Assembly: GCF_000612545.2 (NCBI RefSeq)
Contig: NZ_CP097800.1
Location: forward strand, 1,364,001-1,428,000
Reading direction: 5' to 3'
From: Streptomyces sp. PCS3-D2
Lineage (GTDB): Bacteria > Actinomycetota > Actinomycetes > Streptomycetales > Streptomycetaceae
Length of the DNA stretch: 64,000 nucleotides
In this document: piece after piece, positions 38,558 to 62,096 of the stretch
How positions within the stretch are numbered: position 1 is the first letter of the stretch
Layout of the letters: each line of letters begins with the position of its first letter
Made by a program: the position numbers and the translations under genes
The notes under the pieces: generated by a model
Told to the model about the DNA's origin: nothing
Database searches by the model: none
What the model saw: the letters and a program-made list of their open reading frames with translations, nothing else

Positions 38558-38601
38558 TTGGAGGTTTCCACAGGATGGAATTAAGATTTCGCTATCCAGA
38601 A
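38558..38601 (+). promoter_or_regulatory. allR promoter with paired operators
   Basis: -35 TTGGAG (38558-38563), 18-bp spacer, -10 TAAGAT (38582-38587). TTCCACAGGATGGAA (38566-38580) fills the spacer, and a weaker copy TTTCGCTATCCAGAA (38587-38601) begins exactly 21 bp later. This layout suggests autorepression of the IclR gene, whose start codon is about 170 bp downstream. Confidence 0.6.
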
Positions 38602-38766
38602 TGTAGCTACCGCCACCGGAAGCCGGGCGGATAACTTCCCGAGGGCGTCCACCACCCGGACAAACCATCTCTGACCGGCGGCGACGGCCCCGACCCCGAC
38701 ACTGGGGCCGACGCCGGCCGCCCGGTAGGCTGCTCCCTTGCCTGCCAGCACCGAAAGGACCGCGCC

Positions 38767-39570
38767 GTGCCGACGTCCAGCGCCAGCACCACCGACGCTT
38801 CCTCGAAGACCCCTGCCGCCAGCGGTGGCGTCCAGTCCCTTGAGCGCGCCTTCGACCTGCTCGAACGGATGGCCGACGCCGGGGGCGAGGTCGGCCTCAG
38901 CGAGCTGTCGGCCGCCAGCGGTCTGCCCCTGCCCACGATCCACCGCCTGATGCGCACCCTCGTGGCGTGCGGGTACGTACGCCAGCAGCCCAATCGACGG
39001 TACTCCCTCGGCCCCCGCCTGATCCGCCTCGGCGAGTCCGCGTCGCGCCTCCTGGGCACCTGGGCCCGCCCCTACCTCGCCCGTCTGGTCGAGGAGACCG
39101 GCGAGACGGCGAACATGGCCCTGCTCGACGGGGACGAGATCGTCTACGTCGCCCAGGTGCCGTCCAAGCACTCGATGCGCATGTTCACCGAGGTCGGCCG
39201 CCGGGTGCTGCCGCACTCCACGGGCGTGGGCAAGGCCCTCCTCGCCTACACCCCCGCCGACGAGGTACGCGCCCTCCTGGCCCGCACCGGCATGCCGGCG
39301 GCGACCGAGAAGACCATCACCACGCCCGAGGGCTTCCTGGAGGCGCTGGAGCAGGTCCGCAAGGTCGGCTACGCGGTCGACGACAACGAGCAGGAGATAG
39401 GAGTCCGCTGCCTGGCCGTGTCGGTGCCGAACTCGCCGACCGCCGCCGCGATCTCCATCTCCGGTCCGGCTGGCCGCGTCACCGAGGCCGTGACCGAGGC
39501 CTTCGTCCCGGTCCTCCAGAACGTCGCCGCCGAGCTGTCGGTGGCGCTGGCCAACCAGAGCCCGGCATAA
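38767..39570 (+). CDS. allR: IclR-family repressor of allantoin catabolism (AllR)
   Basis: A 267-aa regulator from GTG 38767 (AAGGA upstream). The winged helix (about 20-80) reads SLERAFDLLERMADAGGEVG and GLPLPTIHRLMRTLVACGYV. The effector domain (about 95-260) has ETANMALLDGDEIVYVAQV, LPHSTGVGKALLAY and GVRCLAVSVPNSP. In Streptomyces coelicolor an IclR protein, AllR, represses allantoin genes and is released by allantoate and glyoxylate. Position beside allB-alc and the shared operators in the promoters here support the same identity. Its own promoter carries the operator. Confidence 0.92.
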   Translation: MPTSSASTTDASSKTPAASGGVQSLERAFDLLERMADAGGEVGLSELSAASGLPLPTIHRLMRTLVACGYVRQQPNRRYSLGPRLIRLGESASRLLGTWARPYLARLVEETGETANMALLDGDEIVYVAQVPSKHSMRMFTEVGRRVLPHSTGVGKALLAYTPADEVRALLARTGMPAATEKTITTPEGFLEALEQVRKVGYAVDDNEQEIGVRCLAVSVPNSPTAAAISISGPAGRVTEAVTEAFVPVLQNVAAELSVALANQSPA

Positions 39571-39573
39571 CCC

Positions 39574-39653
39574 CGCCGCGACCGTCGTACGGGAAGGCCC
39601 CGGCCGCCCCTCCGAGAGGGGCGCCGGGGCCTTCCCGTACGACGGTCGCGGCG
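39574..39653. terminator. Exceptionally long near-perfect hairpin after allR
   Basis: Arms 39574-39611 and 39617-39653 pair over about 37 bp, with one extra C bulged in the left arm, and a 5-nt loop CCGAG. It starts 4 bp after the allR stop. Such a stem exceeds what a terminator needs. Confidence 0.85.
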
Positions 39654-39768
39654 CAGGGCCCGGGGACCCCGACGCGGATGGGACCGGGGGCCGGCCCGCG
39701 GGCCCGCGGGCGGTGGTCCGGGCTCACCACCGTGCGAGGCCGCCCCCAGGCGCCTCCGTACGCCCGCC

Positions 39769-59238: not shown

Positions 59239-60147
59239 GTGCTGGGCCCGAACCGTGAACCCGGATGAGGGGTGGTACACGGCGAGGGCAGGACGAGGAC
59301 CGTGGCAGGCGTGCGAGCCAGTGCGGTGGTAATGGGTTCCGAGGCCCGTCTCTTGACCTGAGGGAGACGGTGCCGGAGTTCTCGTCGCCCGCCCGCCACG
59401 GTCCCAGCCACTCCCCCTTCTCTTCCCACAGGGGCTGCGCACAGAGCGCCCTGCGGGAAGCGGAGGAGGAAACCTTCCTCCCCACACAACTCCGCCCGGC
59501 GGTGCGAACGTCCTGTCGCGCCAGCCTCGCACCGTCGGGCGGTAACAACCAGAGCGCCGAGTCACGGACGGTCCCGTGACTCGGCGCTTTGTCGTACCCG
59601 TCCGCATGGCCGCACCCGTCCGGATGTCGTCACCGTGGGGTGGCCGGCGCCGTGGGGTGGCCGACCTCCGGTCGGGCAGGTGCCGGCGCCGGGTTGCGCG
59701 TCCGGGGCCCCGCCGTCGAGGGACCCGGCGCACCGCGGCCGCACCGGAGCGCGGGCCGTGCACGGCACTTCCGGGCGGTTCGAGGACCACGAAGGGCCGT
59801 TTCCGGCCGGTCGAGGCCGAAGGCCGTTCCCGGCCTCCCGGGGCGGCCGCGTACGGGAGCCGCCCACCGCACGTCCCGGTCCCGGTGGGCGGTCCCCGGT
59901 GCGCGGGGAACCGGGCGTCACGCGGCATCGCACGGCCGGGCCGGGTCCGGGAGCCGGTCAGCACGCTCGCGGCGCCGGAGAGCGTGTACGGGACGCACAC
60001 GGGGGCGCGAGCCTCCGGAGGAGATCCCCGCCCGGCCCCCGCCGGCCACTGCAGCACCCGGAGCCGGCCTCCAGCAGTACCCCGAGACCGGGGGGCTCCG
60101 CCTCCGCCGCGGCCCACGGCGTGCGAGGACCGGCCGGAAGCACGACG
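59239..60147. other. Long gene-free region with an orphan terminator
   Basis: About 0.9 kb without a coding region I can support. 59239-59552 is moderately GC-rich and ends at a strong terminator (59553-59588). 59589-60147 is very GC-rich, with Arg/Pro/Gly-type nonsense in every frame. A non-coding RNA in the first part is possible. Confidence 0.5.
59553..59588 (+). terminator. Strong terminator without an assigned gene
   Basis: Perfect 15-bp stem AGCGCCGAGTCACGG (59553-59567) / 59574-59588, 6-nt loop, followed by TTGTCG. The catalase already has its own terminator 300 bp earlier, so this one may serve an unrecognised short transcript. Confidence 0.7.
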
Positions 60148-60191
60148 CGCCGCGACCCCCGCCCTCCTCGCGGGGGACGGGGGTCGCGGCG
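60148..60191. terminator. gcl terminator
   Basis: Perfect 14-bp stem CGCCGCGACCCCCG (60148-60161) / 60178-60191, 18 bp beyond the leftward gcl stop. Confidence 0.8.
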
Positions 60192-60209
60192 TACGGCCGG
60201 AGCCGGGGA

Positions 60210-61997
60210 TCAGACCTTCAGGGCCTTGATCGCGGTCGGGGCGTGACCGGGCTCGGTCGCGAGCTCCTCGAACTCGGTGACGTCGCTCATGTCGACGGTC
60301 TTGCTCATCGAGATGTTGGTGATGCGCTCCAGGATGGCCTCGACGACGACCGGGACCTGGAACTCCTGGGCCAGCTTCTTGGCCTGCTCGAAGGCGGCAC
60401 CCAGCTCGTTCGGGTCGGTGACGCGGATGGCCTTGACGCCGAGGCCCTCGGCGACCTTGACGTGGTCGACGCCGTAGGCGCCGATCTCCGGGGTGTTGAT
60501 GTTCTCGAACTCGAGGTTGACCTCGAAGTTGATGCCGAGACCGCCCTGCGCCTGACGGATCAGGCCGAGGTAGGCGTTGTTGACGAGGACGTGGACGTAG
60601 GGGACCTTGTGCTGGGCCGCGACCGCCAGCTCCTCGATCATGAACTGGAAGTCGTAGTCGCCCGAGAGCGCGACGATCGGGGTCTGCGGGTCCGCGGTGG
60701 CGGCACCGATGGCGGCCGGGATGGTCCAGCCGAGCGGACCTGCCTGGCCGCAGTTGATCCAGTGGCGCGGCTTGTAGACGTGCAGCATCTGCGCGCCGGC
60801 GATCTGGGAGAGGCCGATCGTGGTGACGTAGCGGGTCTCGGGGCCGAACGCCTTGTTCATCTCCTCGTAGACGCGCTGCGGCTTCATGGGGATGTTGTCG
60901 AAGTGCGTGCGGCGCTGCAGGGTGGCCTTGCGCTCCTGGGCGGAGGCGGCCCAGGCGGAGAAGTCCGGCAGCTTGCCCTCCGCCTTGAGCTCCTTGGCGA
61001 CCTCGATGAAGAGCTCCAGCGCCGCCTTGGCGTCGGAGGCGATGCCGAAGTCCGGGGCGAAGATCTTGCCGATCTGGGTGGGCTCGATGTCGACGTGGAC
61101 GAACGTGCGGTCACCCAGGTACGCGTCCAGGTTGTAGCCGGTGTGACGGTTGGCCCAGCGGTTGCCGATGCCGAGGACGACGTCCGACTCCAGGAAGGTC
61201 GCGTTGCCGTAGCGGTGCGAGGTCTGGACTCCGACCATGCCGGCCGCCAGCTCGTGGTCGTCCGGGATGACGCCCCAGCCCATCAGGGTGGAGATGACCG
61301 GGATGTTGGTCAGCTCGGCGAACTCGACCAGCAGGTCGGAGGCGTCGGCGTTGATGATGCCGCCGCCGGCGACGATCAGCGGGCGCTCGGACTCCAGCAG
61401 GAAGCTCAGGGCCTTCTCGGCCTGCGCCCGGCTGGCCTGCGGCTTGTAGACCGGCAGCGGCTGATAGGTCGCCGGGTCGAACTCGATCTCGGTCAGCTGG
61501 ACGTCGATCGGCAGGTCGATGAGGACCGGGCCGGGACGGCCGGAACGCATGAGGTGGAACGCCTGCTGGAAGACGCCGGGGACCTGTGCGGCCTCCAGGA
61601 CCGTCGTGGCGGCCTTGGTGACCGGCTTGGCGATGGCGGCGATGTCGACGGCCTGGAAGTCCTCCTTGTGGAGCTTCGAGACCGGGGCCTGACCGGTGAT
61701 GCACAGGATCGGGATGGAGTCCGCGATGGCCGAGTACAGGCCGGTGATCATGTCGGTGCCGGCCGGGCCCGAGGTACCGATGCAGACGCCGATGTTGCCC
61801 GCCTTGGCCCGCGTGTACCCCTCCGCCATGTGCGAGGCGCCCTCGACGTGGCGGGCGAGCGTGTGGTTGATGCCGCCCACGTTCTTGAGCTCGCGGTAGA
61901 AGGGGTTGATCGCAGCACCGGGAACACCGAACGCTTGTTCGACACCCTCGAGCTTGAGGATCTCAACTGCAGCAGCGGCGGCTGTCATACGAGGCAT
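60210..61997 (-). CDS. gcl: Glyoxylate carboligase (tartronate semialdehyde synthase)
   Basis: ThDP enzyme joining two glyoxylates to tartronate semialdehyde and CO2. 595 aa. The N-terminal ThDP domain has [12 protein letters not shown] and [17 protein letters not shown]; Val51 stands where other ThDP enzymes have Glu, the hallmark of Gcl. [17 protein letters not shown], the FAD-related middle domain, and the ThDP-binding [15 protein letters not shown]...[10 protein letters not shown] follow. ATG 61997 has AGGAG 7 nt upstream. It starts the leftward arm of the glyoxylate cluster; product feeds Hyi/GlxR. Confidence 0.98.
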
Positions 61998-62030
61998 CAG
62001 GTTCTCCTGCGGGTCTGGCGGGTCAGGCTT

Positions 62031-62096
62031 TTCCGTAATCCGGAAGTATTGTTCTGCTATACGGAACAAACTAAGCGGCGTCTTCTTCGGCGTCAA
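62031..62096 (-). promoter_or_regulatory. gcl promoter with tandem AllR-type operators
   Basis: On the minus strand, -35 TTGACG (62096-62091), 17-bp spacer, -10 TAGTTT (62073-62068). Two operators follow: TTCCGTATAGCAGAA (62066-62052) at the start point and the perfect TTCCGGATTACGGAA (62045-62031), 21 bp apart. Confidence 0.7.

Follow-up and report, generated by a model that had tools for sequence, protein, structure and literature searches.

Do the purine and glyoxylate genes of Streptomyces sp. PCS3-D2 share an operator, and which protein would read it? The question is raised by a 64,000-nucleotide stretch of contig NZ_CP097800.1 (positions 1,364,001 to 1,428,000), referred to here as the window. 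A preliminary description of this DNA had listed the palindromic 15-mer TTCC-N7-GGAA at 38566, 46049, 55658, 57682 and 62031, assigned it to allR, aceB, hyi, the catalase gene (kat) and gcl, and proposed it as a common operator. All five 15-mers proved exact to the base, and the longer TTCCG...CGGAA arms claimed for three of them are present at hyi, kat and gcl. The specific element is a 36-bp composite of two boxes rather than the bare 15-mer. Judged from sequence and gene context, this motif is very probably the operator of AllR, the IclR-family repressor encoded at 38767.

The composite 36-bp element

At every one of the five promoter sites a second 15-bp box lies exactly 21 bp from the first. 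The resulting pattern, TTCC-N7-GGAA-N6-TTCC-N7-GGAA, has one strong and one weaker box, the weaker frequently ending in AGAA; at hyi the weak box sits upstream of the strong one. The spacing was first spotted by eye and then scored over offsets 8-79. Summed over six sites (the five promoters and a distant one preceding a DUF6986 gene), the match at offset 21 came to 38 of 48 letters, compared with a mean of 15.7 (standard deviation 4.7) over all offsets and a runner-up of 27 at offset 70. The spacing found at 6/6 sites falls inside a trend, not an obligatory one, of the IclR family, for which the part of PMC8222616 used here predicts tandem palindromes 18-22 nt apart in 94 orthologous groups.

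With up to two mismatches the composite occurs at seven places in the 7.63 Mb genome, where a composition model expects 0.6. One mismatch is found at hyi and gcl, and two at allB/allR, aceB, kat, 6878719 (the DUF6986 site) and 2022175, the last lying within an open reading frame (ORF). Sixteen other genomes gave 78 forward matches and 27 matches of the backwards control (1.7 per genome), so about one chance match among the seven is plausible.

The bare 15-mer is enriched in the genome, yet unspecific. The window holds six exact copies, whereas dinucleotide shuffles gave a mean of 0.46 and a maximum of 4, with 0/100 reaching six. The whole genome holds 69, compared with 24 for the pattern read backwards, and a single-box genome scan was dropped as too unspecific. 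By the terms of the preliminary description, a motif frequent at random positions genome-wide would refute its reading; the bare 15-mer with its 69 places goes halfway to this, the composite at up to two mismatches does not. Nine of the first 15 genomic places, all outside the window, fell in ORFs according to a crude gene finder, which overstates such placements because it always takes the longest ORF and labelled even the hyi and gcl operators as in-gene. The stricter TTCCG-N5-CGGAA is exact at 14 genomic places, including hyi, kat, gcl and the DUF6986 site. An exact TTCCGCCTGACGGAA also stands upstream of a pobA-like monooxygenase gene (L144:1501-1515, gene named by eye) and may be bound by a related IclR factor.

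The sixth exact 15-mer of the window, at 40331, had not been listed before. It lies inside a minus-strand ORF (39769-40767) identified by eye as an ATP-binding cassette (ABC) transporter ATPase, has no partner box and is absent from the window's 14 best composite matches by matrix scoring. As an in-gene match without a partner box it was rejected as an operator and is likely a chance match. The operators and their genes are as follows.

37095 to 38438, minus strand: allB, allantoinase-like amidohydrolase (Amidohydro_1); the start is a best guess
38457 to 38492: imperfect composite directly upstream of allB, overlapping a second palindrome described below; matrix score 20.5
38566 to 38601: allB/allR composite, strong box 38566-38580, weak box 38587-38601; two mismatches
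38767 to 39570, plus strand: allR, IclR-family regulator of 267 aa with a GTG start (HTH_IclR, IclR_C)
46049 to 46084: aceB composite, strong box 46049-46063, weak box 46070-46084; two mismatches
46213 to 47832, plus strand: aceB, malate synthase A (TIGR01344, 840 bits, over cut-off)
55637 to 55672: hyi composite, weak box 55637-55651, strong box 55658-55672; one mismatch
55689 to 56522, plus strand: hyi, hydroxypyruvate isomerase-like (TIGR03234, 299.7 bits, under the cut-off of 353)
56598 to 57497, plus strand: glxR-like reductase downstream of hyi (NAD_binding_2, NAD_binding_11)
57682 to 57717: catalase composite, strong box 57682-57696, second box 57703-57717 with its right arm lost; two mismatches
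57736 to 59193, plus strand: catalase (Catalase PF00199, 624 bits)
60210 to 61997, minus strand: gcl, glyoxylate carboligase-like thiamine pyrophosphate (TPP) enzyme (TPP_enzyme N, M and C domains), named by context
62031 to 62066: gcl composite, strong box 62031-62045, weak box 62052-62066; one mismatch

Because the 38566 operator lies between the divergent allB and allR genes it is not attributable to allR alone; the site stands, and its exclusive assignment to allR does not. The imperfect copy noticed earlier at 38457 is real, since its score of 20.5 was obtained with a matrix lacking the window's own copy. The gene downstream of allB encodes an allantoicase (Allantoicase domain match). Beside the hyi operator and divergent from hyi, 54931-55562 carries two little genes, one for an HTH_22 protein and one that is MTH1187-like, the latter named by eye.

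The scoring matrix was trained on the upstream sites of hyi, gcl, DUF6986, aceB and allR, and scores at these sites are circular for that reason; the site picked at a few allR loci may in fact be the allB copy, so that 38457 was held out only for the window's own sequence. The best window match off all listed operators scored 2.0. Among the 44 own-genome loci to which the matrix was applied, the best scores beyond the listed operators were 13.6 (L151) and 13.4 (L285), and both were set aside as unsupported. A look-alike, TTCC-N7-GGAATATNTTTTCCA, occurs in three different genomes (L151:1501-1536, L272:2268-2303 and L273:2433-2468, the last preceding an aquaporin-like gene by eye) and perhaps belongs to another factor. 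A possible extra target in genome G052 is an NCS1-type permease-like gene, named by eye, that has a 2-mismatch composite (L274:2562-2597) upstream.

Conservation and promoter position

Conservation was followed in 81 loci for hyi, gcl and catalase, namely the window and the best 80 of 161 relatives from an hyi-based search, and in the 30 best loci for each of aceB, allB/allR and DUF6986, taken from searches of the genus that each covered 101 genomes. The hyi composite is present with one mismatch in 81/81 loci. At gcl it has one mismatch in 56 and two in 4 of the 60 loci with upstream sequence, the other 21 being left out of the count. All 30 allB/allR loci carry it (7 at one mismatch, 21 at two, 2 at three), as do all 30 DUF6986 loci (11 at two, 18 at three, 1 at four) and 29/30 aceB loci (27 at two, 1 at three, 1 at four). 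The single aceB miss is L185, where the protein match begins at residue 32.

Promoters were predicted as best-match sigma-70-like hexamers. The predicted -10 element ends no more than about 3 bp from the first base of the operator in 81/81 loci at hyi (where the -10, TGCAGT, is weak), 33/33 box-bearing loci at kat, 30/30 at DUF6986 and 55/60 at gcl. At aceB (29/29) and allR (21/30) the first box occupies the -35/-10 spacer. Both arrangements, over -10/+1 and in the spacer, are usual repressor positions. By this simple hexamer search, all five sites agree with the earlier statement that the motif lies within the promoter or directly behind it.

AllR as the predicted reader of the operator

The protein encoded at 38767 matches HTH_IclR (68.3 bits) and IclR_C (145.6 bits), both over the Pfam cut-offs. 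Its name AllR is taken from gene context; the best curated models are BhcR, PcaR/PobR, IclR, KdgR and AllR, every one under its cut-off. In E. coli IclR, residues Gly160, Ala161, Asp212, Ser239 and Ser241 bind the oxygen atoms of glyoxylate or pyruvate, according to the part of PMC11323563 used here. An alignment to E. coli IclR, read by eye, gives Gly, Val, Asp, Ser and Ser at these positions, so that 4/5 are kept.

Outside the genus, a class search of 118 genomes returned 22 loci with AllR relatives of 47-68% identity (L250-L271), many of them adjoining malate synthase, malic-enzyme, glycolate-oxidase, gcl or DUF6986-like genes (by eye). Within 300 bp upstream of these relatives the composite was found at 7/22 with up to four mismatches (0.12 expected from mononucleotide shuffles) and at 11/22 with up to five (1.02 expected). 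The proposal of a shared purine and glyoxylate AllR operator is well supported, as a predicted site, by conservation, promoter position and recurrence outside the genus; its catalase part holds in one clade only.

Several observations weigh against AllR and this operator. The protein reaches 201.7 bits with the BhcR model (NF045644; cut-off 350) and 127.4 bits with the E. coli AllR model (NF007548; cut-off 406), attaining neither, and 15/22 of the relatives outside the genus lack a composite at up to four mismatches. A scan of the own genome at three mismatches was rejected, as it gave no excess over the backwards control (22 versus 21). Among the more divergent Streptomyces, G010, G037, G031 and G018 likewise show no excess at up to two mismatches (5 versus 4); G018 nonetheless carries a perfect composite at hyi. 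The best loci, on which conservation was counted, come from near relatives, so the sample is a close one. At 14.5, the score of the catalase composite is barely over the unsupported 13.6 and 13.4, so that the catalase case rests on its exact strong box, its position and its upkeep within a clade.

For S. coelicolor, regulation of the allantoin genes by AllR has been published (Navone et al. 2015, Appl Environ Microbiol 81:6649, as given in the reference lists of PMC12772271 and PMC6759348), and PMC12772271, in the part used here, cites AllR as a repressor, as the preliminary description had stated. The protein at 38767 would likewise be an IclR-family repressor of allantoin pathway genes, and since this control was known, the main finding is a known regulator whose operator has been worked out more fully. 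The half-sites of E. coli AllR and IclR stand in the opposite order, GGAA...TTCC, in the motifs of PMC8222616 drawn on here; the E. coli AllR motif KTTGGAAWAWTWTTCCAAC is not matched, its half-sites being reversed relative to the window boxes. BhcR of Paracoccus denitrificans, a glyoxylate-sensing IclR relative, gives the best-scoring curated model; unlike the protein studied here, which stays below that model's cut-off, it targets the beta-hydroxyaspartate cycle as far as the part of PMC11323563 used here describes.

The BhcR likeness raises the possibility that bound AllR serves as an activator at some targets, or has a dual role, as has been proposed for BhcR. BhcR is a reported activator of its cluster (same part of PMC11323563), and the aceB and allR operators are positioned unlike the rest. 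However, 6/6 operators overlap promoter-like core elements, a position from which a protein usually hinders transcription, and S. coelicolor AllR is cited as a repressor; we regard an activating or dual role as improbable. A second alternative, that another IclR-family paralogue reads the boxes, draws on the 13 AllR-like matches in the own genome, on the TTCCGCCTGACGGAA copy at the pobA-like gene and on GenR of Corynebacterium glutamicum, an IclR factor with the nearly identical box ATTCC-N7(5)-GGAAT (PMC8222616, in the part used here). GenR governs 3-hydroxybenzoate and gentisate use, in which it differs from AllR, and the operator precedes allR itself and AllR relatives in other genera, which makes a paralogue decidedly improbable.

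The HTH_22 protein (54931-55314), which contains a DNA-binding domain (PF13309), might instead be the binder, if not of every box then of the TTCCG...CGGAA class found at hyi, kat and gcl. Its gene adjoins the hyi operator, is divergent from hyi and is present at 73/80 related loci. At the remaining 7/80 the gene was not seen (at the locus itself; 5 of these have 10 kb upstream), and all seven keep the hyi operator. Outside the genus, the operator is again met upstream of AllR relatives. We disfavour this protein as very unlikely to be the binder. Chance or codon-driven matches, for which the 69 genomic boxes, the nine in predicted genes and the probable case at 40331 might speak, are scarcely credible given six copies where 0.46 are expected, and in-register conservation with a 21-bp partner contradicts them at hyi, gcl, aceB, allB/allR and DUF6986.

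For AllR as the binder we infer the following mode of action, in which repression, the tetramer and the effectors are predictions like the binder itself. The two 15-bp palindromic boxes, 21 bp apart, would lie on the same helix face and be occupied over 36 bp by two AllR dimers, jointly a tetramer. AllR would cover -10/+1 at hyi, gcl, kat and DUF6986, and the -35/-10 spacer and +1 at aceB and allR, and when bound would block transcription. The S. coelicolor work of Navone and colleagues reportedly determined the motif, placed hyi in the AllR regulon and found that allantoate and glyoxylate release AllR. Here purine breakdown would supply allantoate and glyoxylate, and the release of AllR would jointly switch on glyoxylate-making and glyoxylate-using genes.

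Catalase, a second palindrome and DUF6986

The strong catalase box begins 2 bp past the predicted -10 element TAGGCT. It is exact in 28/81 loci and present with at most one mismatch in 33/81; the other 48 have no box. In a quick catalase-gene tree, which contains too large a share of the window's near relatives, the 33 form one group, supported by a Shimodaira-Hasegawa-like approximate likelihood ratio test (SH-aLRT) value of 99, with a single state change. Catalase was rejected as a genus-wide AllR target, and AllR control of catalase, if real, would be a local gain that brought the gene into the AllR regulon once, in one clade. The earlier suggestion that its inclusion would tie peroxide defence to urate oxidation therefore holds for this clade (33/81, one change) and not, through the TTCC box, in general.

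Comparison of the catalase promoters revealed a different conserved element: TTCAACAAACTGTTGAC, around -35 and one mismatch from TTCAACA-N3-TGTTGAA, in 81/81 loci. In the window this second palindrome occurs at four places.

38472 to 38488: at allB, two mismatches to TTCAACA-N3-TGTTGAA
46031 to 46047: at aceB, adjoining the composite, three mismatches
54844 to 54860: upstream of the uricase operon, one mismatch
57639 to 57655: in the catalase -35 region, one mismatch

The uricase operon comprises the genes for 2-oxo-4-hydroxy-4-carboxy-5-ureidoimidazoline (OHCU) decarboxylase, 5-hydroxyisourate (HIU) hydrolase and uricase, and carries the palindrome in 67/67 loci scored, of 81. It was further found at allB in 30/30 and at ureA in 18/30 loci (up to two mismatches), and at aceB in 27/30 and DUF6986 in 10/30 (up to three), some of the last overlapping the AllR box. 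It was absent from hyi (0/81) and gcl (0/60). As a control, 2/2000 random 300-mers reached it at three mismatches. The own genome has 137 matches at up to three mismatches compared with 59 backwards, and in 14 genomes TTCAACR-N3-TGTTGAA at one mismatch gave 68 forward and 4 backwards. Some matches recur within genes, for example TTCAACGCCCTGCTGAA, and are non-regulatory. The single exact genomic copy (L290:1124-3017) lies between small cyclophilin-like and cydA-like genes (by eye), a pair accompanied by the palindrome also in four other genomes (L335, L337, L344 and L345). No report of the palindrome was found in the literature searched by term. These counts suggest that in the loci examined the link between catalase and uricase is the second palindrome, not the TTCC box.

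The distant sixth composite (6878719-6878754, two mismatches) lies 5.45 Mb away; a DUF6986 gene starts 52 bp downstream of it. The encoded protein scores 615 bits with PF22484 and 22.4 bits with HpcH/HpaI, under the cut-off of 25. A nine-member DUF6986 profile found one solved relative by sequence (E<=0.1), 5ugr, with E 0.0039 over 90 positions; it is a malyl-coenzyme A (CoA) lyase/beta-methylmalyl-CoA lyase. Malyl-CoA lyase chemistry yields or consumes glyoxylate, and a glyoxylate-linked role of DUF6986 is for these reasons plausible, if weakly supported. In two genomes from other genera (L252, L263) a DUF6986-like gene and an AllR relative are divergent and separated by a region that holds a 4-mismatch composite; the L252 protein is 55% identical to that of the own genome, and that of L263 was named by eye. 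No paper was found under the term DUF6986 in the literature searched.

We give roughly even credence to a wider picture in which TTCAACR-N3-TGTTGAA is the site of an unrecognised second regulator of purine nitrogen, through which the uricase operon, a source of peroxide, is coupled to catalase, allantoinase, malate synthase and often urease. In this picture catalase would be a fixed, genus-wide part of urate breakdown to which one clade added an AllR box at +1, and the AllR-controlled DUF6986 protein would be an uncharacterised glyoxylate-linked aldolase. What began as a short motif can now be scanned for as a 36-bp operator, one that appears to have been gained once at a catalase promoter. 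The predicted AllR operator would be a first functional lead for DUF6986, and the second palindrome offers a defined piece of DNA with which its regulator may be fished out.

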